Positions 1,255-44,957 of a DNA stretch of 64,000 bases are shown here, one piece after another. The notes beneath the pieces were generated by a model that was given only the letters and a program-made list of their open reading frames with translations, was not told the origin of the DNA and searched no databases. How positions within the stretch are numbered: position 1 is the stretch's first letter; the number at the start of each line of letters is the position of its first letter. The DNA comes from Alligator mississippiensis (lineage: Eukaryota > Chordata > Crocodylia > Alligatoridae), in NCBI RefSeq assembly GCF_030867095.1, contig NC_081832.1, forward strand, positions 54,669,444 to 54,733,443, read 5' to 3'. The translations under genes and the position numbers were made by a program.

Positions 1255-2977
1255 TTCATAGATTCATAGATGTTAGGGTCGGAAGGGACCTCAATAGATC
1301 ATCAAGTCCGACCCCCTGCATAAGCAGGAAAGAGTGCTGGGTCTAGATGACCCCAGCTAGATACTCGTCTAACCTCCTCTTGAAGACCCCCAGGGTAGGG
1401 GAGAGCACCACCTCCCTTGGGAGCCCATTCCAGACCTTGGCCACTCGAACTGTGAAGTTCTTCCTAATGTCCAGTCTAAATCTGCTCTCTGCCAGCTTGT
1501 GGCCATTGTTTCTTGTAACCCCCGGGGGCGCCTTGGTGAATAAATCCTCACCAATTCCCTTCTGTGCCCCCGTGATGAACTTATAGGCAGCCACAAAGTC
1601 GCCCCTCAACCTTCTCTTGCGGAGGCTGAAAAGGTCCAGTTTCTCTAGTCTCTCCTTGTAGGGCTTGGTCTGCAGGCCCTTGACCATACGAGTTGCCCTT
1701 CTCTGGACCCTCTCCAGGTTATCCGCATCCTTCTTGAAGTGTGGCGCCCAGAATTGCACGCAGTACTCCAACTGCGGTCTGACCAACGCCCTATAGAGGG
1801 GAAGTATCACCTCCCTGGACCTATTTGTCATGCATCTGCTGATGCATGATAAGGTGCCATTGGCTTTTCTGATGGCTTCGTCACACTGCCAGCTCATGTT
1901 CATCTTGGAGTCCACTAGGACTCCAAGATCCCTTTCCACCTCCATGCCACCCAGCAGGTCATTCCCCAGGCTGTAGGTGTGCTGGACATTTTTCCTCCCT
2001 AGGTGCAGCACTTTGCATTTCTCCTTGTTGAACTGCATCCTGTTGTTTTCTGCCCACTTGTCCAGCCTATCCAGGTCTGCCTGCAGCTGTTCCCTGCCCT
2101 CCGGCGTGTCCACTTCTCCCCATAGCTTTGTGTCATCTGCAAACTTGGACAGAGTACATTTCACTCCCACGTCCAAGTCGCTGATGAAGACATTAAAGAG
2201 TATCGGTCCAAGGACCGAACCCTGCGGGACCCCACTGCCCACACCCTTCCAGGTCGAGACCGACCCATCTACCACGACTCTTTGGGTGCGACCCTCTAGC
2301 CAATTCGCCACCCACCGGACTGTGCAGTCATCCACATCACAGCCTCTTAATTTGTTCACCAGTATGGGGTGGGATACCGTATCGAAGGCCTTCCTGAAGT
2401 CCAGGTATACGACATCCACCCCTCCTCCTGTGTCCAGGCGTTTCGTAACCTGGTCATAGAAAGAGACTAGGTTGGTCAGGCACGATCTGCCCGCCACAAA
2501 CCCATGCTGGTTTCCCCTCAGCATAATTTGTCCTGCCGGGCTCTCACAAATGTGAGCCTTGATAATTTTTTCAAATACTTTACCAAGGATGGAGGTGAGA
2601 CTGACCGGCCTATAGTTGCCCGGGTCCTCCTTCCTCCCCTTTTTGAAAATGGGGACCACGTTAGCCCTTTTCCAGTCCTCCGGGACTTGGCCCGTGCGCC
2701 ACGAGCATTCGAATATTCCCGCCAGTGGCTCTGCAATGACGTCGGCCAGTGCCTTCAGCACCCTGGGATGGAGCCCATCCGGGCCTGCCGACTTAAATGC
2801 ATCCAGTTCTTCCAAGTGACTCTGCACCACCTCAGGATCTACGCATGGAAGTCTGGCGCCTTGCTGCTGCCTCTCTACAACCCCAGTGAGAGACTTGTCG
2901 TGCCCCTCGCTTAGGAACACTGAGGCAAAGAACTCGTTGAGGAGTTCGGCCTTGTCCCCTCTATCTGTCACCAATTG
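1255..2977 (-). mobile_element. Young 5'-truncated CR1 LINE
   Basis: Read on the minus strand this is the 3' 1.7 kb of a CR1. It starts inside ORF2 just before the reverse transcriptase, runs through the stop codon and a short 3' UTR, and ends in the CR1 tail ATCTATGAATCTATGAA at 1255. It matches the copy at about 37131-38855 almost base for base. The homology stops abruptly at 2977, which is typical 5' truncation from incomplete target-primed reverse transcription. A CCAA-rich simple tract lies about 70 bases beyond that end (about 3047-3080). Confidence 0.95.
1343..2974 (-). CDS. CR1 ORF2 C-terminal fragment: reverse transcriptase, open but without a start
   Basis: This 543-codon open frame holds the whole CR1 reverse transcriptase and C-terminal region. 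In order it shows a VVPIFKKG block, NYRPVSLTSI, the first catalytic Asp in YLDFRKAFD, GVPQGSVLGP, the catalytic FADD box and the CR1 C-terminal GVFKRRLDEYL. The endonuclease and ORF1 are missing. The first codon is TTG at the truncation point and an in-frame stop lies just upstream, so it has no initiator of its own and is probably not expressed. Against the full copy at 35840-38767 I count 8 substitutions and one lost Phe codon over about 541 residues, with every catalytic residue kept. It is therefore a recent insertion of a family that was active not long ago. Confidence 0.85.
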   Translation of the reverse strand: MVTDRGDKAELLNEFFASVFLSEGHDKSLTGVVERQQQGARLPCVDPEVVQSHLEELDAFKSAGPDGLHPRVLKALADVIAEPLAGIFECSWRTGQVPEDWKRANVVPIFKKGRKEDPGNYRPVSLTSILGKVFEKIIKAHICESPAGQIMLRGNQHGFVAGRSCLTNLVSFYDQVTKRLDTGGGVDVVYLDFRKAFDTVSHPILVNKLRGCDVDDCTVRWVANWLEGRTQRVVVDGSVSTWKGVGSGVPQGSVLGPILFNVFISDLDVGVKCTLSKFADDTKLWGEVDTPEGREQLQADLDRLDKWAENNRMQFNKEKCKVLHLGRKNVQHTYSLGNDLLGGMEVERDLGVLVDSKMNMSWQCDEAIRKANGTLSCISRCMTNRSREVILPLYRALVRPQLEYCVQFWAPHFKKDADNLERVQRRATRMVKGLQTKPYKERLEKLDLFSLRKRRLRGDFVAAYKFITGAQKGIGEDLFTKAPPGVTRNNGHKLAESRFRLDIRKNFTVRVAKVWNGLPREVVLSPTLGVFKRRLDEYLAGVI

Positions 2978-5900
2978 TCACCATTGTAGAACTAGCTCCA
3001 AAAACTCTACCTTAAATGTAGAGCTAGCTGAAAATTGTGAGGAAACAACCAACCAACTAACCAACCAAAACGAAACAAACATTTTTTTTCAATTTCAACT
3101 TTAATTTCTTCAATTTATGAACCATTTATCCTATCCATACCAGCTCTTCCAGTAAGCAATAAGTGAAACTACATTACCCGTGAAAACAGATTTGTATGGC
3201 TGCTAGTTGGCTGGTTGTATCTTCAAGCAAAATCTGAGATACAACTCCCCCTGGCCCCCCACAAAAACAAACAAACCCGTATTCCTCACTTCTGGCCCAG
3301 AGACTAGTTTATATTTATGTTCTTTTGTTTTCCTTGTCAATTTACCAGAATTTCCTTGGGTGACCTGGTAATCCACTGTTGTAGGTTTACAAAAAATAGA
3401 GCCACAGGCACTGCCAAAGGCAATGCAGCTGTTTAGACACTAGCAAAGGGGGAAGAGGAAATGGGGGAGGGAGGGAGATAAATATTTATGCTTTCAATTT
3501 CAGGGTTGTTTTTTTTTTCATTTTTATGAAAAAAGTATAGTTTGAGAGAGCAAACAGTGTTTTGGAGTGAAAAGCTAGTTTTCTGTTTAAAAAAAAAGTT
3601 AAAAACACCACTCCACCAAAAAAAGATCCCAACAATTTAAAGAACATCACCTAGTACTTAGTTCAGGTGATAAATTGTCATTGACTTCACTGGGAATGTA
3701 TACATGTACAGCAGCTGTTATATTGAGCCCCAAATCTGTTCAAGAATGGCTTTTGGTAATTTCAATTAAAAGATGGATTAGTAATTAAGATTAAAATAAA
3801 ATAACTTTACTCCTGACCAGATCTGTACATTTTAAAAATAAAATCTCTGTTGTCTTTTATGGAAATTAACAGTCAGTCTCAGATCTAGAGTGCTTCCTGT
3901 TCTGATACAACTCTGAATGCTTTAATCACATAGATAGATATACCAATATTTTGAGGTTTACTGGAAGCTTTTAAAGTTTTGCTAAATGTAAATTGGATAT
4001 AATCACATCCTTGGGGGAAACAACTTTGAACAGTTTAATTGCATTAAGCCTCATTTGCACTATTCCAGTTTTATGTGGATGTAACAAAGCTGACATTAAG
4101 AGAGACACGAGTGATTAATTGTACATATTCATTGCTGAATCAGGCCCACTAGCTCTATATCAGTAGGAAATTCTCATTTATCAATCCTTTTCATTATACC
4201 TTCTGTCAAATGAGTTAGGATAATCTTAGGATCAAGTAACTTCCACTTCTCATCTTTGAGAACCTATCAATTAAATGTCTTCTTTTATAAAACAAAGAAA
4301 AATCCGTCAAATCACTCCCTGACCTGTTCTTGGAACTTGATTCTTATTATGCTAAAGACTTTTAACATGCCAAAAGATCACTCACATAGGGGTTTTGGCA
4401 TAGCTAAAAATTAGGATCTTAGTGTAGTCATTTACACACATTAAGTCTTCCTTACGCTTCCAGTGTGTAGAAAGGGATTTAGGTGGAAATAAGTATCAGA
4501 CCCTACCACTTGCATTTGATAGCCTACTACGCCCACTTTGCAGTAGTTAAAATGACAACAGAAAATACAGAATAATAGAAAATCAGACCCAGAGAAGAGT
4601 CAACATTTATCCTTCTGTCCAGGCTACTGTGAGCTGTTGGCGTGTACTCTCTGAAGAGCTGAGTACTTTAAAAAAAATCTGATTGCCACTTTCAAGATAA
4701 ACTCTGTGAATTCAAGTCTGGAATTTACAAAAGTCATTCATCTCTGGTTGGAAAGTACTTGATTGCTGCAAAAAGAATCTGAACTCTGTGTACTAAAATG
4801 ATTCTCAATCATTCTCTCTCTATGACATCTTTCAAACATAGGTGGCTTTAGGGAACTCCTCTCACATTAATCTGAAATGTGGGTGAGTTTCAGGATTTTG
4901 AAAGTAATGTGCTATGATTGCTTTTGCAAGCCTTGGAAACTAAGCATTCACCAACTCTTTCAAAGTATGATTTTGCTTAAAATACTCTAGCTCTAATTTT
5001 TGTAAGAGCAAGTTACTTTTTCCTTCCTCACAAACTGCCATTTCATCATGTTACATCATTTTTTTTTCCCTATGGAACATATGGAAGGTGACATAGAAAA
5101 GATATCTAGAAGTTTGCTTATGGACAATTTCCAGCAATAACTTGAAAATGTAGTCCAATGCTGCAAGTATTTAACATCCCTATCTATATGCAATTAATCT
5201 GTGTGAATTATAGGCTACTTATCCCTTGAAAGTTGTAGATATTGCATGAATGAGTTAATATCCAGGACTAGAATTAATGAATATTAAGTGACAGTGTATT
5301 TCTCAGTTGTTATTGCATGCCTGAGGTGTGCTGGGAAACAGGTGGCTAAAGGCTATGAGACTTGAACCATCTCAGAAGTTCAATAATCTCTAGAAATGTA
5401 GTGCCCAGAGTATCATATTGTTATTATAAAATGGAAATTATTTTAAGACATGAAAAAATCATACCTGTGCAATTAATGGGGATTACTGAGTTGGGGATGA
5501 CATCCTTGGCAGAGAGAGTCAAAAAAGTTCCATTTGTATCAGAAACTTATAAAGTTATTTTAGAAAGGTTGATATAATCCAATACTTAGGCTTTAATGCC
5601 AGAGAATTTTTACTAACAAGTAGTTAGCAATAGTGTAACTAAATGGAAGTGACCAGGGCACCAGTCCCACATATCAAGTTGGGGGGGGGGGGGTGCAAAA
5701 ATAGCATCCACTCTGCTGCAGGCCCAGCTGTAGCTGTCCTGTGTACCAATGCCAAAATTACAGAAGTGCCCAGGTATGCCTCTGACAGCTACCAATAAAT
5801 ATACCAATTGGGTAATTATAGTTTTAGGTGCTATAGCTTTTGCTGGAGAAAAGGGGCTGCTGTGTTTAGACAACTGTTTCACAAAATAAGGTGTGCTTCT

Positions 5901-13394: not shown

Positions 13395-13639
13395 TAAGTG
13401 TGGTATTCTCTTCTGTCCTACCAGTGAGCAGATGTGGAAGATGACACAAAGCATGCATCAGAGAGATCAACTGGCGGCTTTGGGAATGGTGTCTTGAGGC
13501 AGGCTTCGGCTTCCTAATCAATGACCCATACATCACAACAAAAGACATGCTTGGGTGGAATGGGCTCCACCTTTCCCCCAAAGGTAAGCATGTGCTCTCT
13601 TCTAGGTTGGCGGATCTCCTCAAGCGGGCTTTAAGCTAG
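13395..13639 (+). pseudogene. CR1 ORF1 C-terminal remnant (SGNH hydrolase-like)
   Basis: The translation resembles the last 80 residues of the intact ORF1. It covers the RETNWRLRQWCLEAGFGFL-type segment, the HITT-D-ML block, and the Asp-Gly-Leu-His that carries the hydrolase Asp and His. The upstream part with the catalytic Ser is missing and the remaining frame is damaged. It ends in TTTAAGC then TAG, one base different from the TTTAAAC-TAG of the intact copy. Confidence 0.75.
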
Positions 13640-14993
13640 GCTCATCGGGGAAGGGGAAGACGTTGGCAGAGGAAGCCTTGGACCACTAAACCAAGTGTCA
13701 CCCACAAGAACAGCACAGCCTAGACTGACGACGAGCAGAACAAATACCCAGGTAAGTAACAGGGGCCCGGGCAGTACTGAGTTTAGGGGGCCAGTGCATG
13801 CATCTTCACAAGGCCTCAAATGCCTCTACACAAATGCTTGTAGTATGGGGAACAAGCAGGAGGAACTTACCCTCCTGCTAGCTGACACCGACCCAGACAT
13901 AGTGGGGCTCACAGAAACGTGGTGGGACCCAATGCATGACTGGGCAGTGAATATCAAGGGCTATAGGCTGCACAGTAGGGATAGGACAGGCAGGAAAGGT
14001 TGGGGGTGTGGCTCTCTACGTCAAGGAGAAATACACATCCTCAACAAGTAGCACAAGTTCAGAGGAGGGGCACACTGAAGTGCTCTGGGTTAGAATACAA
14101 GGAAGTTGAGGGGAAAGGGACTTAACGGTGGGGGTCTACTACAGACCTCCCAACCAAGGGGAAGAGCTAGACCAGGAATTCTTAAATCAGCTCACAGAGG
14201 TAGTTAGGTCAAAGGATGTGATCATCATGGGTGACCTGAACTTTCCAGCCATCTGCTAGGAAGAGCACTCAGCCAGGTCTGACCACTCATGTAGGTTCCT
14301 AGCTGAGATACAGGACCTCCATCTAAGCCAGGAGGTGCATAGCCCCACCAGGGGAGATGCCTTGTTGGACCTGGTCCTGGCCATGGGTGACAACCTGGTG
14401 AGGGGTCTGTGGGTGCTCGACCACCTGGGCAACAGTGATCATCGCCTGCTGGAATTCACCATCCAGTGCAAGGTGGCAAAGGCCTGCAGCAAGGCAGCAG
14501 CCCTGGACTTCAGGAGGGCAAACTTCAATGAGGTAAGGAGAATAGTCGGGGAAACACTAAGGTCCCAGATGAGGAAGGAGTCAGGTGTCCAAGAAGAGTG
14601 GTCATTCCTTAAGGAGACGATCCTCCAAGCCCAAAGACAGGTAATCCTAACACGGATCAAAGGGGGCAAGAGGGTGTTGACACCTACACAGTCAATTGGG
14701 TCACTAACTGGCTGGAGGGTCACACCCAGAGAGTGGTGGTGGATGGGGGCAGTGGGATTCTGCAGGGCTCGGTCCTCAGGCTTGAGCTGTTCAACATCTT
14801 CATCAGTGACTTGGATGAGGGGGTGAAAAGCACTCTGTTCAAATTTGCAGATTACACTAAGATGTGGGGGGAAGTGGGCATGCTAGAAGGGAGGAATAGG
14901 CTACAATTGGACCTAGACAGGTTACAGGGGCGGGCAGATGATAACAGGATGGGTTTCAACACTGACAAGTGCAAAGTACTGCACTTGGTGGGG

Positions 14994-16200: not shown

Positions 16201-16932
16201 GTGGGGAAGAACCAGCAGCATACCTACAGGCTGGGGAACTCCCTTCTCGTCAGTGCAGAGGCAGAAAAGGATCTTGGGGTCATTATTGAAGCCAAAATGA
16301 ACATGGGCCAACAGTGTGGGGACGCAGTCAGGAAAGCCAGCCGTACCTTGTCATGCATCCACAGATGCATCTGAAGCAGATCCAAGGAGGTGAACCTCCC
16401 CCTCTGTGCGACACTGGTCAGGCCACAGTTGGAGTACTGTTTCCAGTTCTGGGTGCCGCACTTCAAGAGGGATGTGGACAACATGGAGAGGGTCCAGAAC
16501 TCACATGATCGGGGGCAGCAGGGCAGGCCCTACGAGGAGAGGCTACGAGACCTGAACCCGTTCAGCTTCCACAAGAGAAGGCTGAGGGGGGATCTAGTGG
16601 CCTGTTACAAACTAGTCAAAGGGGACCAGCAGGCATTGGGGGAGTCCCTGTTCCCCCGAGCACTACTAGGAGTGACTAGAAATAACAGTCACAAGCTGGC
16701 AGAGGGTAGATTCAGACTAGACATCAGGAGGCGCTACTTCACTGTCAGGGCAGCTAGGATCTGGAACCAACTTCCGAGAGAGGTGGATCTGGCTCCTACC
16801 CTGGGGATCTTTAAGAGGAGGCTAGATGAACACCTTGCCAGGGTTGTTTGACCCCAGTACTCTTTCCTGCCATCGCAGAGGGTCAGACTTGATGATCTGC
16901 TCAGGTCCCTTCTGACCCTACAAAATATGAAA

Positions 16933-19900
16933 CTATAACCCTACTTTTACATAAAGCAATTCTTTTCACACATTTCTTGTATGTTCTGATATTACATAGA
17001 GTCTCCATTCATGACAAATTTAGATAGGACCATTTCAGAGTTGCTGATGAGAACAGCCAGGGTACTACTTATACAGAAAATCAATGTAAGAATCCCTAAA
17101 TAGTGTAGTGTATATGAATAATAGCTCCCCACAAGTACCTAACTTGTCTACAAAAAATAGTTCCCAGTGACTTTCAAAGGCAGTTAGGGTCCTCATTTTG
17201 GCTTTGAAAATCTCCCCATTAAATATATTTTCATGTATGTGCAGGAATGTAATATGTCCATATTAGATATTGCATATGTACAATTGATCCTTCACTGTTA
17301 TATATTTCAACAATACCCAATTATAAAAACAATGCACAAAAAGATTGAAATACTTAATAAAAATTGCCAATTTTATAAGCATCATTTTGAAATTAACTGA
17401 GTCATTTTGGCTGCATAATCATACCCCTGAAGGGATGCAATAAAGTATAAATGTAATCAAATGCATTTTTAGAACAGACTTCAAGGTAGTGCATGCACAA
17501 TTTCTGACCCAAATATCCAGTCATGAGTATAATATCAGACCTTTAATTATAATTTCTATTATAATGGTTCTATTGAAGAAAATGTAACCACTGCACTTAC
17601 CTGCAATTACGCACACATAGTCTTGAGAAAGTGCAGATGAATGCTCTCCTATGAACCGTTGCTTGCTGAGACAGTTCACCCAACTATTTTAATCTCTTTT
17701 GCCCTGGGTTTATCGTCACTGTGATGGTATCTGCATGGAGGAAAAAAGAACTAAATGCCAATAATGAAAAATCATTATATTTGTTCTGTAATTCCCCATT
17801 TGTTTTTTGCATGAATAAATCAGAGAGTTAGTTTGCAAACAGCTTATTGTGAGAACAATTAAGTATAGCCCAGTTTAGGCTGAAGTTTGCTTGAATTAAT
17901 GCTTTTTTGAGAACATCATTAGGTCATATCTGAAAAACTTATCAATTGCTAAAAGGTATATGGTTAAATCCTGTGCCCAATGAAGCCAGTAGTAAAGTAC
18001 CTATTATCTTTTAAGGAAAGGGCAATATAGTTTTAGAATATAGAAACTTTCAAAACAAGGAAGAATACTCTTTAGAGCTGATAGTCTATCACAGGCTGTA
18101 ATTTCAAAATGCAGCTCTGTACTTTTCATGGCATTATCATTTGAACAAACACAGTTGTATGGCCTCACTAACTCCATACTACTGCACTATATAATATATA
18201 GCCTAGCTGCTGATTCTATGCAAAGCACCATCAATTTCAATGGTGTGCCAGCAAGGGGCAACATATTTTTAACACTTTTATTCAGTGTGGTACATATCAA
18301 GTAAATGGCTTCATGCAAAAAAATGGAATTAGAGGCTGGCTGAATATTTGGACATATATTCATGTTTGTGGGGGTGGGGGGGGACGGGACGACGACACAC
18401 ACCTTCGCAATTACAGTTCATGCTATCATGTTCAGCAGATTGGTAATGGATACAGACAACTGCCAGCCACAGAAGGATGAGGAGGGACTGCTTTTATTGT
18501 ACCATATCTGTGAAGAGAGGCATTCATGCTGGAGAGATGTCACTTTATATATATATATATATATATAAACTTCATGTACATAATACATGCATACTTCTTA
18601 TATATTATGCACCTATAATATGTGTCATTTATAGTATATTAATGATACAAATCAATGAATTGTGACTTGTTAACAAACTGACTATAAATTACAAAATATT
18701 TCTTCATTTTGGCCACTTCTTGTAGATTAGATAATACATTGCCTTTCGGAATTTCTGTAAATTGAAAAAATTGTGCATTGATGATGTCTTCCTTAAAATA
18801 CTTAAACATTATATATACATACTCATTTTAATACTCATATTTTTTAAATTCACAGTTACTTTGCTAGCAAATCACAATTCACTGGCTTGTGTCATTCGTG
18901 CCTTACTGAGTTGTTTTATGTCAAATGAGCTTTAACTTAATAGATAATGATGAGATACATTTCAGTGCAAAGTAAAATGGTTAAAAATTTACTTCTAATA
19001 TATCTGTATGTGTATAGAGTACTTTCAATTAAGATATACTCTCAATTAATTATTTTATATGCGAGTCTGGTACAATGCTGAAAATCTATTTTATCTGCAT
19101 GTGAGAAGCTAAATCATGGACTGATTACTCTCTTTTATAGCAATGGTAATGTTAAGTGCTTCATGTTTGAAGCTAAGTGTTGGCAAGGAAACTTTTGTGA
19201 GTCAAGGAAGCAATTTATTGTTATACTAAGCTCTAGAGATAAAAGCAGATCGAAACCATAAAGTGAATATGGAGAATGAATGGTGTCATAGACAGTTGTA
19301 CATAATAAAAAGAAATCCTTTTGACTTGAAAACAGTCTGTATGCTGTGCATTATTAATTATTATACAAATACAAAGCAACATCTACAACCCCCCCCCCCA
19401 ACTTCCAGATTCACTTAATTTATTTCATTCTGCGTTTTTTCAATGGCATGGCTCAAGCACTTAAATTTAAGTTTTAGCATAAGTCTTGAAAGTATCAGTA
19501 CCTGTGTGTGAAAAGCAAACTAAATTCCTTCCTTTATCTATTATCTTTTGCTTTAAAGATGAGTAAATTATCAATATCAATTATGTATTAACAGATAACA
19601 ACACCTAACTTGTCTAGAGTCACAAGCCACGGGATAATGAAAAACTGAAATAAATACATCTGTTAAATGTTACAAAATACCAGTAGTGTATCTGGAATAG
19701 AGGGGTAGGGAGAGGAGTGATAGGGACAACCACCCCAGTTGCCAACCTAGGAGGAGAGTGAAAAAGTCACCCTTTCTGCTTTCCACCAGGTGCCCAGCTG
19801 CATCCATACACTTCCGTGAAATATAGTCATGAACGTTGTTTGATCAGGCTTACTAGCCTTTCAGCTGCAAGGTGCAAAATTGGAACTGAAAATGATGGCC

Positions 19901-22696: not shown

Positions 22697-25029
22697 GCTA
22701 ACCTGTATTGAAGAGCTCTACCTGACTCAGGAAGTGCACGGGCCAACCAGAGGTAACTCTCTCCTAAACTTGGTTTTGGCCAAAGGAGATGATCTGGTGA
22801 GCTTGAATATAGAGGGTAGCCTGAGTGACAGCGACCATGAAACCATCACATTCACTATCTGTCACAAGGCAGGAAAATCAGCTAGCAGGGTTGAAGTTTT
22901 GGACTTCAAAAAAAAAAAGCAAATTTCAACAGGATTAGGGCAATAGTAGGGGCAGCTCTGTGGGACCAAGGGTGAAAGGAGTGCATGAAGAGTGGTCATT
23001 CCTGAAGGACACAATCCTTGAAGACCAAAAAAAGTCCATTTCCATGCAGAGGAAATGTAGCAGAAGGGCTGGTAATCCTCTTGGCTTAATAGGGATATCA
23101 CAGTCCTCTTGAAAAACAAGAAAGAGGCCTACAAACAATGGAAGCTTGGGACAATCCCCAAGGCAGACTATACAACAATGGCCCATACTTGTAGGGAGCA
23201 GATTAAAAAGGATAAGGCGGTGACTGAATTTAAACTAGCAACAGAAATCAAGGACAATAAGAAGTCTTTCTTTAGATATGTGGGGAATAGGAGGAAAACA
23301 TGGAAGTGTGGGGCCATAGCTTAACAACTCAGGAGAGCTGGCAGTGGCTACTGACACTCATAAAAATCCTGAATGACTACTTTGCTTTAGTATTTCACCA
23401 GACTAAGGGGAAAATCATACTAGATTAGGTTCAGAATGGGCATGGTGGGAATGACCACCTTCCCACCATCAAAATTGAGCTGGTACATGATCAGTTAGAA
23501 AAATTAAACATTTATAAGTCAGCAGGACAAGATGAACTTCATCCGAGAGTGCTGAAGGAGCTGGCTGAAGTCATCACAGGACCTCTGGTGAAACTCTTCC
23601 AAAACTCGTGGCACTTGGGGGAGGTCCCTGAAGACTGGAAGAGGACCACTGTTGTGCCCATCTTCAAGAAGGAGAGGAGAAATGACCTGGGCAACTATAG
23701 GACAATTAGCCTAACTTCTATCCCAGGGAACATCCTGGAAGAATTCATCAAAGAGTCTATGTGCGATACGCTCTCAGAAGGTAGGATTCCGAATGACAGC
23801 CAGCATGGCTTCATCATGGGCAGGTCTTGTCTTACTGATCTCATCTCCTTCTATGACCAGGTAACTTGCCACCTGGATAAGAGAGAGGAGATCGACATTG
23901 TATACCTAGACTTCAGAAAGGCCTTTGATCCAGTATCCCATGATGTTCTCATGGGAAAATTGGAGGATTACAGGCTTAACTGCTTGACAGTTAGGTGAGT
24001 TGGAAGTTGGCTGCAGGGTAGGACCCAGAGAGTTCTAATGAATGTACCTGTGTCGTCCTGGTGAGAAGCAGCCAGTGGTGTCCCTCAGGAGTCTGTGCTT
24101 GGTCCAGTGTTTTCAACAACTTTATCAATGATTTGGATGTGGGGGTGAAGAGGTCACTGGCCAACTTAGTGGATGGCACCAATGTATGAGGGCATGTGGT
24201 CATACTTGAACATAGGCTGCAGATACAGGTGGACCTAGACAGGCTGGCAAGTTGGGCGGATCAGAACCAGATGAAGTTCAACATTGAGAAGTGTAAAGTG
24301 CTCCATCTGGGGATGAATAATCCCCAACATACTTACAGGCTTGATGGCACCAAACTGACTAGCACCACAACTCAAAGTGATCTAAGGGTAATAATAGATT
24401 ATAGTATAAACATGAGCCATCAGAGCAATACTGTAGCCAGCAGGGCAAACAATACCCTGGCATGCATAAATTGATACATCTCAAGCAAAATCAAGGAAGT
24501 TATTTTTCCACTTTACTCAGCATTGGTGAGACCACAGCTGGAGTACTGGACATGGAAAAACTTGAGAGAGTCCAAAGAAAAGCTACCCATATGATCAGAG
24601 ACTTGCAAGGCAAGCCATATGAGGATAGGCTGAGGGACTTGGGCCTCTTCAGCCTAAAAAAGGGAAGGCTGAAAGGGGACTTGGTAGCAGCTTACTGCTA
24701 CATCAAAGGAATACATCAAGGGCTCAGGGAACAACTGTTCACCAGGGCACCCAAGGGGAAAACCAGGAGTAATGGCCACAATTCTCCTGGAAAATCATTT
24801 CAGGCTTAACATTAGGAAAAACTTCTTCACAATTAGCGTGTCCAGACTGTGAAATAAACTTCCTCCAGAGGTGGTATAATCACCTACCCTGGAAATCTTC
24901 AAGAGGAAACTGGACGGTCACCTCTCTGGGGTCATTTGACCCCAGTTGTCTTTCCTGCCTAGTGTAGGGAGGCTGGACCCGATGATCTTGCAAAGTCCCT
25001 TCTAGCCCCTTACAATCTATGAATCTATG
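22697..25029 (+). mobile_element. Old CR1 LINE inserted in a hAT-like element
   Basis: Starts in the endonuclease region of ORF2 (matching 36490 of the intact copy), crosses the linker and reverse transcriptase, and ends with the CR1 tail ATCTATGAATCTATG at about 25029. It is 5'-truncated and divergent from the young copies. Confidence 0.9.
22709..24939 (+). pseudogene. CR1 ORF2 remnant, frameshifted
   Basis: Pieces in different frames match ORF2 in order: ELYLTQEVHGPTRGNSLL and a SDSDHETI endonuclease end; a linker with FFRYVGNRRK; reverse transcriptase with EDWKRTTVVPIFKKERR, YRTISLTSI, QHGFIMGRSCLTDLISFYD and IVYLDFRKAFDPVSHDVL at 23549-23998; then MKFNIEKCKVLHLG and the C-terminal GLFSLKKGRLKGDLVAAY. 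The FADD catalytic box is lost (region near 24150-24185). Several stops and frameshifts show it is dead. Confidence 0.85.
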
Positions 25030-34542: not shown

Positions 34543-35102
34543 CAGTAGTTCTAAAATGCTTTACAGAACAATGAGTGCCTAGCACTAGACCAGCACATCA
34601 CATCATATGCAATATGAGAGTCACTGGCCACCATAAGTTTCTTCAGTGGAATCAATTACAATTATATTTGTGATGGGTCACTGTGTATTGGTAGCCCTCA
34701 CAACATCTTGTACACATTCTTACACATGTTGGGGGGAAGGGGAAGAGATCCAGTGAATACGCATTACAGAAGGCTCAAGTATAAGGCATGGAGGAACATA
34801 TTAGATGTATTAGGCAATGTTATTTTGTGGAATTTATCTTTTTAATGCCAAGAGTAGCAAAAGATTATGTCATATGCATGCTCTCAATCACAGGGATGTA
34901 AATCTTGAGTAATTTTACTGACATTGATCAAATGACTCCAGATTTAAACCACCAGCAACTAAGGGTGGAGTCTACCCTGATTTTTTTATCAATGTATATA
35001 TGTTTCTGACTTCCTTTTTACATACACTTAAGCAGGATGTAAGACTCCTTCTGACAGAACACAAAATTAACACAGACGTCATATGAAGAATTAGACAAAA
35101 AC
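34543..35102. other. Unassigned AT-rich stretch 5' of the young CR1
   Basis: No element recognised. The CR1 homology begins at about 35103, so this should be the flank of its insertion site. A CR1 promoter or 5' UTR was not recognised here. Confidence 0.45.
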
Positions 35103-35783
35103 ATGAACAGAGAACCGGTACCAGCTTCTCCAGTCCGACTGGTGAACAGGTACGAGGCCCTGGCGACCCTGCAGGAGATGGAAGGGGAGGAGGACACCCT
35201 TGGGCAAGAAGAAACACCACGTTCTTCACACCCCAAACAGATCAAGAGATCCACGATGACCCAGAGGAAGAGGCGACGTGTGCTCATCATAGGAGACTCC
35301 ATCCTGAGAGGTACGGAAGGACCCATCTGTCGCCAGGACCCCTCGGCACGAGAGGTATGCTGCCTCCCTGGAGCAAAGATTTGGGATGTGACGGAGGTAA
35401 TCCAGGCCAGGATCAAGCCCACCGATTATTACCCCATGGTCCTAGTCCATGTGGGTACTAATGATGCGGCCAGGAGAACCCCCGATCACTTGATGGCGGA
35501 CTACTGTGCTCTGGGCGGCGTGCTGAAGGAGTTCGGTGCCCAGGTGGTTTTCTCTTCCATCCTACCAGTGACCGGACGAGGAAGACGGCAGGAGAACTGC
35601 ATCAGAGAGACCAACTGGCGGCTTCGGCAGTGGTGTCTCGAGGCAGGCTTCGGCTTCCTGGACCATGACCCGCACATCACGACGAGGGACATGCTCAGCT
35701 GGGATGGGCTTCACCTGTCCCCCAAAGGTAAGCGTGTGTTTTCTTCTAGGTTGGCGGATCTCCTCCGGCGGGCTTTAAACTAG
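35103..35783 (+). CDS. CR1 ORF1: SGNH-hydrolase (esterase)-like protein
   Basis: 226 codons. After a basic linker (KQIKRS, then QRKRRR at residues 54-59) comes an SGNH/GDSL hydrolase-like domain. Block I is LIIGDSILRG with Ser66, the Asn block is HVGTNDAA with Asn120, and the last block DGLHLSPKG holds Asp201 and His204, so the full predicted catalytic set is visible. Esterase-type ORF1 is known from vertebrate CR1 elements, where it is thought to act with RNA or membranes during retrotransposition. The N-terminal zinc-finger or coiled-coil part described in some CR1 ORF1 proteins is not seen, and the ATG at 35103 may be fortuitous after 5' truncation. The frame ends TTA AAC TAG on a slippery-type heptamer. 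Confidence 0.85.
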   Translation: MNREPVPASPVRLVNRYEALATLQEMEGEEDTLGQEETPRSSHPKQIKRSTMTQRKRRRVLIIGDSILRGTEGPICRQDPSAREVCCLPGAKIWDVTEVIQARIKPTDYYPMVLVHVGTNDAARRTPDHLMADYCALGGVLKEFGAQVVFSSILPVTGRGRRQENCIRETNWRLRQWCLEAGFGFLDHDPHITTRDMLSWDGLHLSPKGKRVFSSRLADLLRRALN

Positions 35784-35817
35784 GCTCGTCGGGGGGAGGG
35801 GAGTACGAGGGCAGGGG
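35774..35817 (+). promoter_or_regulatory. Candidate -1 ribosomal frameshift site between CR1 ORF1 and ORF2
   Basis: The heptamer TTTAAAC (35774-35780) sits in the ORF1 frame as T TTA AAC, immediately before the TAG stop. This is the X XXY YYZ pattern known from strong -1 frameshift sites such as that of coronaviruses. The -1 frame is exactly the ORF2 frame and stays open from here into ORF2. Ten bases downstream, 35791-35817 has four G tracts (6, 4, 3 and 4 G with loops of 1, 7 and 2), a G-quadruplex motif. Alternatively CTCGT (35785-35789) can pair with ACGAG (35805-35809). Function is inferred, not shown. Confidence 0.55.
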
Positions 35818-35839
35818 AAGCTGTGGACCACCAAACCAT

Positions 35840-38767
35840 GTGGCACCCACAAGGACAGCCCAGCCTGAAGAAGGAGAACATTGGGAACCTGAAAGCCATG
35901 GGGAGGCCAGCACAACAGAACAGGTAAGGAACAAGAAGGTAAGAAACAATGGGCCCCATGGGACTGGGAGCAGGGGGGCAGCAAAGGCGCCAGTTGCAGG
36001 GCTCAAGTGCCTATATACTAATGCTAGGAGCATGGGGAACAAGCAGGATGAACTAGCGCTCCTGCTTGCACTAAACACCTATGACTTAGTGGGGCTAACA
36101 GAGACCTGGTGGGATTCATCCCATGACTGGGCGGTACATATTGAGGGCTATAGATTGTACAGAAAGGACAGGTCGGGGAAGAAAGGGGGGGGGGTTGCAC
36201 TTTATGTCAGTGAGCAATATACATCAACCCTCATCAAGACAGAATCCGAGGCTGAGGAAGTAGAAGGATTGTGGGTTAGGCTACATGGGGGGCAAGGAGA
36301 AAGGGATTTGGTGGTAGGGGTCTGTTACAGACCCCCACACCAAGGGGAAGAAATAGATGCGGGGCTCCTGAGGCAACTCTCGGAGACCATAAAAGCTAAA
36401 GAGGCGGTAGTCATGGGGGACCTAAACTACCCGGACATCTGCTGGGAGACGCAGACAGCAAGGTCCCATCGCTCACGCAGGTTTCTAACTTGTGTACAGG
36501 ACCTCCACCTGACACAGGAGGTGTATGGTCCCACTAGGGGGAATGCCATACTGGATCTGGTATTGGCAACGGGAGATGAGATGATAGGGGACCTCCAAAT
36601 CGGTAGCTATCTGGGAGACAGTGATCACCTTATGATAGAATTCAACATAAGACGGCGAGTGGGTAAGGTAACTAGTAGGGTGAAAGTGCTAGACTTTAGG
36701 AAAGCTGATCTCATTGCACTCAGGCGATTAGTCAAGGAAGCACTGCAGAGTAGGAGTTTTGATGGGATGGGTGCCAAAGAAGGGTGGCTGTGCCTAAAGG
36801 AAACGATCCTTTGGGCACAAAGCAAGACGATCCCCGAGCGAGGCAAAAGAGGGAAAGGGGCCAGGAGGCTTCCATGGCTGACCAGAGAAATCCAGGGCAG
36901 CCTAAGGGCCAAAAGGGGAGCACATAAAAAGTGGAAACAGGGTGAGATCACTAAAGATGAATATACCTCCTCTGCTCGTGCTTGTAGGGAGGCAGTTAGG
37001 CGGGCCAAAGCTACCATGGAGCTGAGGATGGCAACCCAAGTAAAGGACAACATGAAATTGTTTTTTAGATACATAGGGAGTAAAAGGAAGGCCCAGGGAG
37101 GAATAGGACCCCTGCTAAATGGGCAGAAGCAATTGGTGAGAGATAGAGGGGACAAGGCTGAACTCCTCAACGAGTTCTTTGCCTCAGTGTTCCTAAGCGA
37201 GGGGCACGACAAGTCTCTCACTGGGGTTGTAGAGAGGCAGCAGCAAGGCGCCAGACTTCCATGCGTAGATCCTGAGGTGGTGCAGAGTCACTTGGAAGAA
37301 CTGGATGCCTTTAAGTCAGCAGGCCCGGATGGGCTCCATCCCAGGGTGCTGAAGGCACTGGCCGACGTCATTGCAGAGCCACTGGCGGGAATATTCGAAT
37401 GCTCGTGGCGCACAGGCCAAGTCCCGGAGGACTGGAAAAGGGCTAATGTGGTCCCCATTTTCAAAAAGGGGAGGAAGGAGGACCCGGGCAACTATAGGCC
37501 AGTCAGTCTCACCTCCATCCTTGGTAAAGTCTTTGAAAAAATTATCAAGGCTCACATTTGTGAGAGCCCGGCAGGACAAATTATGCTGAGGGGAAACCAG
37601 CATGGGTTTGTGGCGGGCAGATCGTGCCTGACCAACCTAGTCTCTTTCTATGACCAGGTTACAAAACGCCTGGACACAGGAGGAGGGGTGGATGTCGTAT
37701 ACCTGGACTTCAGGAAGGCCTTCGATACGGTATCCCACCCCATACTGGTGAACAAATTAAGAGGCTGTGATGTGGATGACTGCACAGTCCGGTGGGTGGC
37801 GAATTGGCTAGAGGGTCGCACCCAAAGAGTCGTGGTAGATGGGTCGGTCTCGACCTGGAAGGGTGTGGGCAGTGGGGTCCCGCAGGGTTCGGTCCTTGGA
37901 CCGATACTCTTTAATGTCTTCATCAGCGACTTGGACGTGGGAATGAAATGTACTCTGTCCAAGTTTGCAGATGACACAAAGCTATGGGGAGAAGTGGACA
38001 CGCCGGAGGGCAGGGAACAGCTGCAGGCAGACCTGGATAGGCTGGACAAGTGGGCAGAAAACAACAGGATGCAGTTCAACAAGGAGAAATGCAAAGTGCT
38101 GCACCTAGGGAGGAAAAATGTCCAGCACACCTACAGCCTAGGGAATGACCTGCTGGGTGGCACGGAGGTGGAAAGGGATCTTGGAGTCCTAGTGGACTCC
38201 AAGATGAACATGAGCCGGCAGTGTGACGAAGCCATCAGAAAAGCCAATGGCACTTTATCATGCATCAGCAGATGCATGACAAATAGGTCCAGGGAGGTGA
38301 TACTTCCCCTCTATAGGGCGTTGGTCAGACCGCAGTTGGAGTACTGCGTGCAATTCTGGGTGCCACACTTCAAGAAGGATGCGGATAACCTGGAGAGGGT
38401 ACAGCGAAGGGCAACTCGTATGGTCAAGGGCCTGCAGACCAAGCCCTACGAGGAGAGACTAGAGAAACTGGACCTTTTCAGCCTCCACAAGAGAAGGTTG
38501 AGAGGCGACCTTGTGGCTGCCTATAAGTTCATCACGGGGGCACAGAAGGGAATTGGTGAGGATTTATTCACCAAGGCGCCCCCGGGGGTTACAAGAAACA
38601 ATGGCCACAAGCTAGCAGAGAGCAGATTCAGACTGGACATTAGGAAGAACTTCTTCACAGTTCGAGTGGCCAAGGTCTGGAACGGGCTCCCAAGGGAGGT
38701 GGTGCTCTCCCCTACCCTGGGGGTCTTCAAGAGGAGGTTAGACGAGTATCTAGCTGGGGTCATTTAG
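35840..38767 (+). CDS. CR1 ORF2: endonuclease-reverse transcriptase
   Basis: 975 codons counted from a GTG. The frame is open further upstream into the end of ORF1. Residues about 55-270 form an APE-type endonuclease: Asn61 in YTNAR, Glu88 in LTETWW, GVCYRPP, Asp194 and Asn196 in GDLNYP, and SDH at 261-263. Residues about 490-760 form the reverse transcriptase: PIFKKGRKEDPGNYRPVSL, QHGFVAGRSCLTNL, Asp623 in YLDFRKAFD, GVPQGSVLGP and FADD at 709-712. The C-terminal domain ends GVFKRRLDEYLAGVI. All catalytic residues are present, so the protein could be active. There is no ATG before Met65, which lies after the catalytic Asn61. The nearby ATG at 35838 is in the ORF1 frame and opens only a short frame. 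Translation therefore needs frameshifting, reinitiation or a non-AUG start. Confidence 0.9.
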   Translation: MAPTRTAQPEEGEHWEPESHGEASTTEQVRNKKVRNNGPHGTGSRGAAKAPVAGLKCLYTNARSMGNKQDELALLLALNTYDLVGLTETWWDSSHDWAVHIEGYRLYRKDRSGKKGGGVALYVSEQYTSTLIKTESEAEEVEGLWVRLHGGQGERDLVVGVCYRPPHQGEEIDAGLLRQLSETIKAKEAVVMGDLNYPDICWETQTARSHRSRRFLTCVQDLHLTQEVYGPTRGNAILDLVLATGDEMIGDLQIGSYLGDSDHLMIEFNIRRRVGKVTSRVKVLDFRKADLIALRRLVKEALQSRSFDGMGAKEGWLCLKETILWAQSKTIPERGKRGKGARRLPWLTREIQGSLRAKRGAHKKWKQGEITKDEYTSSARACREAVRRAKATMELRMATQVKDNMKLFFRYIGSKRKAQGGIGPLLNGQKQLVRDRGDKAELLNEFFASVFLSEGHDKSLTGVVERQQQGARLPCVDPEVVQSHLEELDAFKSAGPDGLHPRVLKALADVIAEPLAGIFECSWRTGQVPEDWKRANVVPIFKKGRKEDPGNYRPVSLTSILGKVFEKIIKAHICESPAGQIMLRGNQHGFVAGRSCLTNLVSFYDQVTKRLDTGGGVDVVYLDFRKAFDTVSHPILVNKLRGCDVDDCTVRWVANWLEGRTQRVVVDGSVSTWKGVGSGVPQGSVLGPILFNVFISDLDVGMKCTLSKFADDTKLWGEVDTPEGREQLQADLDRLDKWAENNRMQFNKEKCKVLHLGRKNVQHTYSLGNDLLGGTEVERDLGVLVDSKMNMSRQCDEAIRKANGTLSCISRCMTNRSREVILPLYRALVRPQLEYCVQFWVPHFKKDADNLERVQRRATRMVKGLQTKPYEERLEKLDLFSLHKRRLRGDLVAAYKFITGAQKGIGEDLFTKAPPGVTRNNGHKLAESRFRLDIRKNFFTVRVAKVWNGLPREVVLSPTLGVFKRRLDEYLAGVI

Positions 38768-38855
38768 ACCCAGCACTCTTTCCTGCTTATGCAGGGAGTC
38801 GGACTTGATGATCTATTGAGGTCCCTTCCGACCCTAACATCTATGAATCTATGAA

Positions 38856-39560
38856 ACATTAATATTAGGGGAACAGAGGCTATTGATGGAAAGCTTTGAA
38901 GACTCTCTCTGAAATATCCACAGGTGTCATTCTAGGGCCTCTCACAAATGATAACTGAATTTCAAAGACCAAACAGCATTACAGACTAACATAACATGAA
39001 CGTTTTCCCAAATTCAAACTGATAAAGGAAGGAATGAGAGAATATGATGGCCTTTCAATATCACTAATGCTCACACAGCCTAAGCTGCATTTGCTGTGTG
39101 TTTAGCTAGCATGTGTAAAGCATTGACTGGAAGAGAAAAGCTGGAAGTCTGGCATCTCTAGTTGCTTTCCAGATTCTGACACTATGTGACTGCCTGAATT
39201 ACATGGGGTGCAATTTCAAAAACAGCTAATAGATTCAGGAGTTTAAATACTGATGATTAATAATTTGTGCTCCAAAGAAAATCTAGGCAAATTACTGATT
39301 TTCAGTTCATTGGCTGAAATAAAAGTATTTTTAAAAGCTCATTTGGAAAATTATTTTACTAATTAAGTGTAGGTAATTCTTAAAGGACATATTATTTTGA
39401 CATTAAGAAAGTTAATGCTTTTATCAAATGTTGTTTTTTGCCAGGTATTTTTCCATTTTCTTTGGTTATAACTTATAACAAATTTGATATCAATTTTCAA
39501 ATAGTTTCAGTTGATCCAAATTCTTATTTCAAGCAATAATATCTGCCTGAAAATTTCACT
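38856..39560. other. Unassigned AT-rich stretch
   Basis: No element or gene recognised between the CR1 tail and the next MITE. Confidence 0.5.
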
Positions 39561-43439: not shown

Positions 43440-44498
43440 CAATCTGAACCTACTCTCAAACAGCTTATGGCTGTTATTCCTTGTTACTCCGGGAGGTGCT
43501 CGGGTGAACAGGGTCTCTCCCATTCCCCGCTGGTTCCCCCTGGTAGGTTTGTAGATGGCCACGAGGTCCCCTCTCAGCCTTCTCTTGTGAAGGCTGAACA
43601 GATTCAGGTCCCGTAGCCTATCATCGTAGGGTCTGCTCTGCTGTCCCCAGATCATGCGAGTGGCCCTCCTCTGGACCCCCTCGATGCTGGCCACATCTCT
43701 CCTAAAGTGTGGCGCCCAGAATTGGATGAAGTACTCCAACTGTGGCATGACCAGAATCGCATAGAGGGGGAGGATCACCTCCTTGGCCCTGCTTGTGATG
43801 CATCTGTGGATGCATGACAAGGTGTGGTTGGCCTTACTGACTGAGTCCTAACATTGGCAGCCCATGTTCATTTTGGAATCGATAATGACTCCAAGATCTC
43901 TTTCTGGCACTGTGCTTTCCCCAGCCTATAGGCATTCTGCTGGTTCTTACTGCCCAAGTGCAGTACCCTGCACTTGTCAGTATTGAATCCCATCCTGTTC
44001 TCATTTGCCCACCCCTGTAACCTGTCCAGGTCCAGCTGTATCCTGTCCCTCCCTTCTAGCATGCCCACCTCACCCCAGATCTTGGTGTCATCAGCGAATT
44101 TGAACAGGGTGCTTTTCACCCCCTCATCCAAGTCTCTAATAAAGAGATTAAACAGTGCAGGCCCAAGGACCAAGCCCTGGGGGACCCCACTGCCCACATC
44201 CCTCCAGGTCGAATATGACCAGTCCACCACCACTCTCTGAGTGCAGTCCTTCAGTCAATTTGCAATCCATCTGACTGGGTAGGCATCAATGCCACAGTCA
44301 CCTAGCTTTTTAATGAGAATGGGGTGGGAGACAGTGTCAGAGGCCTTCCTGAAGTCTAGAAAGACTACATCCACCGCAACACCTGCGTCCAATGATTTTG
44401 TGACCTGATTATAGAAGGCAATCAGGTTGGTCTGACAGGACCTACCCCTAATGAACCCATGCTGGTTGCCCCTGAGCATCGTCCCCCCCGCTGGTTCA
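43440..44498 (-). mobile_element. CR1 LINE, inverted 5' segment of a twin-primed insertion
   Basis: Minus-strand CR1 covering ORF2 from about residue 576 (GGTMLRGNQHGF) to about residue 931 (ESRFRL). It includes VVFLDFRKASDTVSHPIL, a GVPQGLVLGP block, FADDTKIWGE and the C-terminal HKRRLRGDLVA region. It stops exactly where the plus-strand segment at 44493 begins. The two share GGTTCA at the junction. The order fits a 5' inversion created during integration. Confidence 0.85.
43446..44490 (-). pseudogene. CR1 reverse transcriptase remnant, broken
   Basis: Three open pieces in order on the minus strand: a LRGNQHGFIRGRSCQTNLIAF to IRWIAN-type part, a VVDWSYSTWRDVGSGVPQG to QNAYRLGK part with an intact FADD, and a C-terminal part from MSCIHRCIT to FRL. 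Frameshifts separate them. The 3' end of the coding region lies in the oppositely oriented neighbour. Confidence 0.8.
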
Positions 44499-44723
44499 GA
44501 TTGGACATTAGAAGACACTATTTCACAATCAGGGCAGCTAGGATCTGGATCCAACTTCCAAGGGAAGTGGTGCTCACTCCTACCTTGGGAGTCTTTAAGA
44601 GGAGATTTGACAATTACATAGCTGAGGTCATATGAGCCCAGTATTCTCTCCTGCCCAGGGCAAGGGGTCAGACTTGATGATCTACTTAGGTTCCTTCCGA
44701 CCCTACATCTATGAATCTATGAA
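44493..44723 (+). mobile_element. CR1 LINE, 3' segment of the twin-primed insertion
   Basis: Plus-strand CR1 3' end: codons from FRLDIRRHYF through GVFKRRFDNYIAEVI, a stop, the short 3' UTR and the tail ATCTATGAATCTATGAA. Together with 43440-44498 it makes one CR1 insertion missing no sequence at the breakpoint. Confidence 0.9.
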
Positions 44724-44957
44724 AGCCTTTCATTTCTAATTAGTCCGTATGGCCATTTTGCTTTACCTTGTTTACTGAAAAATCAGTTAAGCATTGTTAT
44801 CTCTTGCAGCAGAGCATATGGGGAATTGTCCGGCCTTTTTAGAATTATTTTTGTCTTCCTCATTCAATTCTCCTTTAGAACAAAGGGCTTTGTTCAGAAG
44901 TCAGTTAGCCCCAGTCCACCAAAGGACATGAGAACCTAAATTCCACCACTGTCCTGC

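Follow-up and report, generated by a model that had tools for sequence, protein, structure and literature searches.

The CR1 elements of this alligator genome very probably express ORF2 by programmed -1 ribosomal frameshifting at the junction between ORF1 and ORF2. This reading rests on the comparison of genomic copies and concerns one CR1 copy in the window, i.e., the whole stretch of 64,000 nucleotides that was analyzed, together with copies from elsewhere in the same genome. An almost invariant in-phase heptamer, a stop codon adjoining it, an ORF2 in the -1 frame, the lack of a start codon for ORF2 in the majority of copies and linker lengths that differ in steps of three nucleotides are all explained by -1 frameshifting. 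Most ribosomes would read ORF1 to the stop codon just past the heptamer and release the esterase protein. In a minority, slippage from UUA-AAC to UUU-AAA would carry translation into the -1 frame and yield an ORF1-ORF2 fusion of esterase, endonuclease and reverse transcriptase.

The copy extends over about 35108-38855 of the window and has features of the CR1 clade, namely an ORF1 with an SGNH/GDSL esterase and an ORF2 with an AP-like endonuclease and a reverse transcriptase. ORF1 matched the GDSL lipase/esterase family PF13472 of Pfam (E 6.9e-11), and its sole match in the PDB at E values up to 0.001 was 4c1b (E 2.9e-12), an entry whose description names an ORF1-encoded protein. ORF2 matched PF03372 (endonuclease) and PF00078 (reverse transcriptase). 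Two ATCTATGA units are present at the 3' end of the element. At the 5' end, the homology to 29 near-identical sister copies stops upstream of 35108, whereas many of the 29 sisters still agree with each other several hundred bases further upstream. The apparent ORF1 start codon, the ATG at 35103-35105, falls outside the homologous part, which begins at 35108. In 15 of the 29 sisters, an ATG is found 354 codons ahead of the ORF1 stop codon with the frame open, and the ORF1 frame of one copy (L038) probably contains a coiled coil before the esterase. The six-base repeat AAACAT is present near both ends of the element (35099-35104 and 38854-38859), and a longer match of eight bases lies at 35105 and 38871. 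Judged by its sequence, the window copy is a truncated insertion in which the N-terminus of ORF1 is missing, so that it cannot represent a full element, and the junction signal therefore has to be assessed at the level of the family. Six further CR1 fragments are found in the window, i.e., 1255-2977 (-), 13400-14390 (+), 16216-16936 (+), 23515-25029 (+), 43440-44479 (-) and 44495-44724 (+), with an identity of 98% in one case and of 65–78% in the rest. The fragment at 13400-14390 spans the junction and reads TTTAAGC, which is the heptamer with one change.

Direct reading of the window copy showed that ORF1 ends with GCT TTA AAC TAG. The sequence-only reading had claimed that the preceding T completes a slippery heptamer TTTAAAC in the correct phase for -1 slippage and that the -1 frame is the uninterrupted frame of ORF2. 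Both points held in the window copy. The heptamer is directly followed by the stop codon, and the ORF2 frame, which is the -1 frame relative to ORF1, is open from 35750 through the heptamer to the stop codon ending at 38767. The motif LKCLYTNARS precedes the earliest ATG in this frame, which is found at 36032, inside the region that matched the endonuclease family of Pfam. TTTAAAC occurs only once in the element copy, and four heptamers of the slippery pattern are found elsewhere in it. The features of the junction are listed in Table 1.

Table 1. Features of the CR1 copy and its ORF1-ORF2 junction, with positions in the window.
Feature	Position	Strand	Basis
3' part of CR1 ORF1 (SGNH/GDSL esterase), copy 5'-truncated	35108-35783	+	Pfam, PDB, sister copies
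5' arm of a possible hairpin with the heptamer in its loop	35766-35772	+	suggestive only
Slippery heptamer T_TTA_AAC (RNA: U_UUA_AAC), in ORF1 phase	35774-35780	+	sequence and copy comparison
-1 frame linker from slip site to endonuclease domain, open and ATG-free	35780-35998	+	frames, copies
ORF1 stop codon TAG abutting the heptamer (second family group: mostly TAA)	35781-35783	+	sequence and copy comparison
3' arm of the possible hairpin	35785-35791	+	suggestive only
Two G runs (G6-A-G4), starting ten bases past the heptamer	35791-35801	+	recur across family groups
Four-tract G-quadruplex motif, first family group of the sample only	35791-35817	+	pattern count, fold models
ORF2: endonuclease (Exo_endo_phos) and reverse transcriptase (RVT_1)	35999-38767	+	Pfam match

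All comparisons concern one genome, the source of the window, which comprises 2.35 Gb in 195 contigs and was searched in full. Copies were chosen blind to the heptamer via an esterase motif 45–71 bases upstream, which was found at 5033 places, compared to 26 for the reversed control. The sample consisted of 79 of the first 100 places among the 5033, all within the first 42 Mb of contig C1. Grouping by identity over 69 upstream bases yielded two large groups of 42 and 28 copies and small family groups of 5, 2, 1 and 1 copies. Long flanks were available for 59 of the 79 copies, and the other 20 were short stretches. Most of the sampled copies are likely dead, and the sample therefore reflects the ancestry of the families, not live elements.

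TTTAAAC was present in 75 of the 79 copies, in 74 of them at the fixed, in-phase place. The departures were two copies with CTTAAAC, one with TTTACAC and one deletion; in L109, a base is inserted upstream, and the heptamer itself is intact. Codon spelling was compared using the majority letters of five groups (42, 27, 5, 2 and 1 copies). At thirteen upstream codons, a degenerate amino acid is shared by all five groups, and the only ones with a single spelling were GAT and CAC, both of which are twofold degenerate and lie inside the motif used for the search. The ten upstream codons with four- or sixfold degeneracy were each spelled in more than one way across the five groups. GCT (Ala), TTA (Leu) and AAC (Asn), by comparison, are each spelled in one way in all five. 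The pattern GAY CTN NTN CNN CNN followed by GCN YTN AAY TRR, the latter part of which also admits Phe and Trp codons, was found at 4564 places genome-wide, and 4401 of these endings of the Ala-Leu-Asn-stop type (96.4%) read GCTTTAAAC, i.e., GCT TTA AAC. The reversed controls for both counts were zero, but they understate chance because they contain CpG. For TTTAAACTAG, 17,841 genomic places were counted versus 6,186 for a CpG-free reversed control, and for GCTTTAAACTA 12,600 versus 94, a control that understates the background because it contains CpG. Shared descent without constraint was rejected as an explanation, as upstream synonymous sites diverged between the groups and the heptamer did not. 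The heptamer and its phase are thus kept beyond coding need, as far as this one genome is concerned. The stop codon directly after the heptamer is also kept, but not its spelling: all 42 copies of the first group have TAG, and 25 of the 28 copies of the second group have TAA. The endonucleases of the second group are mostly only 50–58% identical to that of the window copy; therefore, the arrangement predates a deep split.

The position of the endonuclease domain was determined by tblastn in the 59 copies with long flanks. Three gave no match and four had no exact heptamer, leaving 52 copies with both marks, and in 40 of these, the endonuclease lies in the -1 frame (including L055, which has lost the linker through a large deletion). 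The usual distances from the heptamer to residue 1 of the endonuclease were 225 (with 210, 228 and 240), 183, 153 (with 147) and 150 nt. All of them are multiples of three, even though the distance varies between families by as much as about 75 bases. Among the 12 off-frame copies, eight were one or two bases off a common in-frame length, and four departed otherwise (L072, L076, L082 and L093). A stricter motif for the endonuclease start was present in 43 of the 59 copies. In these, the distance was a multiple of three in 34 cases, and the -1 linker had no stop codon in 40 and no ATG in 41 cases. Over the same linker, the 0 frame was free of stop codons in none of the 43 copies and the +1 frame in 12. 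Stop codon readthrough was therefore rejected, because it cannot reach ORF2 in any of the 43.

The strict motif was reached by 8 of the 20 short stretches, in which the frame was kept in seven, a stop codon was lacking in five (the exceptions being L098, L104 and L111) and an ATG was lacking in six. Altogether, the -1 frame lacked an ATG ahead of the endonuclease start in 47 of 51 copies of this genome. The small groups gave mixed results. Among the group of five, the strict motif was present in L053, L098 and L111, and all three have a stop codon in the -1 linker, which may reflect the decay of dead copies; another copy of this group, L095, is open through the heptamer. In L093, alone in its group, the endonuclease is off-frame and the linker contains one stop codon. 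The group of L105 had no other usable copy, and the linker of L105 is open, in frame and free of ATG. In 30 near-identical young copies, including the window copy (L009), all linkers are without stop codon or ATG in the -1 frame, and 29 of the 30 have the same length. Linker changes between subfamilies showed no excess at third codon positions (5, 7 and 6 of 30 and 7, 4 and 6 of 50 by codon position), and this comparison was uninformative. Taken together, the central claim of the sequence-only reading, that a -1 frameshift joins ORF1 to ORF2, withstood comparison of the heptamer, the frame and the missing ATG as far as one genome goes.

Further observations were made downstream of the heptamer. 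A run of ten G at 36185-36194, where ORF2 encodes the endonuclease, is hypervariable across the near-identical copies L009-L038, with 11 G in 11, 10 G in 6 and 9 G in 5 of the 30 copies, and up to 16 G. In 22 of the 30 copies, the -1 frame has a stop codon 432–540 bases past the heptamer, just beyond this run. The variability might mark a site at which reverse transcription is especially prone to mutation, or else a site that tolerates slippage. L055, L080 and L076 have apparent internal deletions that begin just past the junction or inside the linker and reach the region of the endonuclease or of the reverse transcriptase; these could have arisen by template switching or splicing. A near-consensus 5' splice site, CAGGTAAG, is located at 35921-35928 and recurs in most of the aligned families, with the second family having CCTGGTAAAA instead; the recurrence may be due to conserved Gln-Val codons or to a splice signal.

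The sequence-only reading had also claimed that four G tracts downstream of the heptamer meet the usual G-quadruplex pattern. This is the case in the window (35791-35796, 35798-35801, 35809-35811 and 35814-35817) and, with at least three G in each tract, in 33 of the 42 copies of the first group, but in none of the 37 other copies; the first two runs are more widespread. Alignment columns 88–92 and 96–98 contain 0.84–0.99 G (raw counts over 77 copies, the sample without L078 and L109), whereas most of the eight bases ahead of the runs are more variable (0.53–0.90). The third positions of two -1 frame Gly codons in the runs are G in 0.96 and 0.99 of the copies. Genome-wide, the heptamer is followed by GGGGGNNGGGG at the exact spacing at 4340 of the 12,600 GCTTTAAACTA places. 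The four-tract pattern is found at two other places in the window element (35951 and 37861), and therefore the motif alone is weak evidence. Energy models that permit quadruplexes were run on 17 representatives and predicted a quadruplex for nine of them, with three tiers in three representatives, all from the young family, and two tiers in six; none was predicted for the other eight. The two-tier predictions were divided equally between the group of five and the second group, and two of the three for the latter were obtained in one of two stretches tried. A strong downstream fold by energy was not found in most representatives (strongest z -2.1). The two G runs are the likely candidate for a frameshift stimulator or for a part of it, which would act at the mRNA entry of the ribosome. 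A quadruplex is a credible stimulator in the young family, and elsewhere this role is unproven.

The absence of an early ATG bears directly on the strongest alternative, namely that ORF2 is translated by termination-reinitiation at a non-AUG codon past the ORF1 stop codon, as for SART1 and as proposed for mammalian L1. Reinitiation has precedents among non-LTR elements (excerpts of PMC2881922 and PMC5972666), the two ORFs lie close together, and a GTG at 35840 is in the ORF2 frame. In addition, excerpts of PMC3905857 report that the zebrafish CR1-clade element ZfL2-1 retrotransposes in HeLa cells without its ORF1 protein, so that some ORF2 of this clade is made without ORF1, and the fusion can therefore not be required in every CR1-clade element. 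However, the AUG that could serve such a restart is missing near the ORF1 stop codon of the window copy and, before the endonuclease start, in nearly all copies scored. Moreover, the heptamer and a fixed -1 frame have been kept, although reinitiation would depend on neither of them. We therefore regard reinitiation as unlikely and -1 frameshifting as the better explanation of the junction.

A second alternative is that the motif is kept for a role of the RNA, for example in RNP assembly or in dimerization via the palindrome UUUAAA, with the hairpin presenting UUUAAAC in its loop and the frame being incidental. The two arms of the possible hairpin enclose a loop of 12 bases that includes the heptamer. 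In an alignment of the window with 32 of the 79 sampled copies (33 chosen rows), the paired fraction of the cells of the stem was 82.3%, compared to 24–55% in slid versions, and only 3 of 500 shuffles reached this paired fraction and 2 of 500 the covariation score. When the junction flanks of 17 representatives were folded singly, z was -2.0 or lower for seven of them and between -1.6 and +1.5 for the remaining ten. These results would fit a function of the RNA, but the compensatory counts of the stem were unexceptional (reached by 208 and 91 of 500 shuffles), and RNAalifold preferred a different, weak structure over the heptamer stem. Moreover, such a role would explain the heptamer, but not the frame, the linker steps of three nucleotides or the missing ATG, and as a replacement for frameshifting, it is improbable. 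Both could be true together. A hairpin holding the heptamer is thus suggestive only; a ribosome at the heptamer would have opened the stem, and therefore the hairpin, if real, would act before or between ribosomes. A longer outer stem pairing the G runs with CTCC codons is not claimed, as it reached 61.1% versus up to 64.1% in slid versions, the version considered having mis-registered inner pairs. A search of 35500-36200 against Rfam gave no match at E values up to 1.

Least probable of all is the expression of ORF2 from a spliced RNA with the start codon in an upstream exon: an acceptor-like pyrimidine tract with TAG/G at 35737-35750, ending with TTTTCTTCTAG at 35749, lies exactly where the ORF2 frame opens, and a similar tract and AG are found at the same place in several families, but the tract encodes a conserved Phe-Ser-x-Arg-Leu of ORF1, so that coding may explain it, and splicing explains neither the heptamer nor the frame.

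For the -1 frameshift, the conserved heptamer and its phase, the maintenance of the -1 frame in the majority of copies and the missing upstream ATG were directly observed, and they suggest that ribosomes slip at this site at some rate. The resulting fusion may well be the working reverse transcriptase. The fusion of esterase, endonuclease and reverse transcriptase that the sequence-only reading had predicted fits the family, but not the window copy, which is without the ORF1 N-terminus. A bolder version, which we regard as rather doubtful, is that in CR1, a LINE lineage widespread among amniotes, the reverse transcriptase has since before the split of the present families been made only as a -1 frameshift fusion to the esterase ORF1 at U_UUA_AAC, and that in the family that spread most recently here the shift is driven by an RNA G-quadruplex. 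If true, this would be a natural quadruplex-stimulated frameshift, and it would add a further route by which LINEs set the ratio of ORF1 to ORF2, besides reinitiation and single-ORF designs. Such stimulators were unknown in nature but anticipated in 2016, according to the available text of PMC5009743. The low-ratio translation of ORF2 in LINEs is an old question that has been answered for few elements, mainly by reinitiation (excerpts of PMC2881922 and PMC5972666). A frameshift signal across deeply diverged CR1 families would place abundant LINEs beside retroviruses and coronaviruses, and it predicts that the working reverse transcriptase has the esterase as its N-terminus. The thousands of genomic copies would offer a natural data set on the evolution of a slip site and its stimulator.

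Among the papers listed in the literature searches, none describes frameshifting in CR1 in its title or the opening of its abstract; the founding papers (Burch 1993, Haas 1997/2001, Kajikawa 1997, Kapitonov and Jurka 2003) or Repbase notes may remark on the junction. Excerpts of two CR1 papers describe two ORFs and do not state the mode of ORF2 translation (PMC4316615; PMC2734521), and the available portions of a review on frameshifting do not mention CR1 (PMC5009743). Neither the signal nor its proteins were found in viral and prokaryotic contig collections, a result that says nothing on birds or turtles.

Among non-LTR elements, the telomeric HeT-A and TART of Drosophila are similar in that frameshifting or bypassing has been reported or considered. 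In the accessible sections of PMC5009743, a frameshift is needed for gag expression of HeT-A, the route to a TART polyprotein is called unknown, and no UUUAAAC junction is described for either. In SART1 of the silkworm and in L1, for which reinitiation has been described or proposed, the translation of ORF2 likewise depends on that of ORF1 (excerpts of PMC2881922 and PMC5972666). These elements are described with an ORF2 AUG, whereas most CR1 copies have none before the endonuclease start and have kept the slip site. The gag-pol frameshifting of LTR retrotransposons differs in that CR1 is a non-LTR element and its ORF1 encodes an esterase, not Gag. In coronaviruses, -1 frameshifting yields a low-ratio fusion to the polymerase. 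The site of IBV is U_UUA_AAC in the same phase and direction, and this heptamer is listed with those at which mammalian ribosomes are most prone to a -1 shift (available text of PMC5009743). In contrast to the coronaviruses, the CR1 host is a LINE, the stop codon directly follows the heptamer, G runs are present instead of an established pseudoknot, and the frameshift of CR1 is a prediction from sequence. Constructs that combine UUUAAAC with RNA G-quadruplexes are designed but share the heptamer, a G-rich stimulator downstream and a 0-frame product that ends just past the slip site (excerpts of PMC12710887). In reticulocyte lysate, these yielded frameshifting of 4.5% with (GGGU)4, 5.5% with (GGGGU)4, 2.7% with (GGA)4 and, about twice the background, 0.54% with (GGU)4 (PMC12710887).
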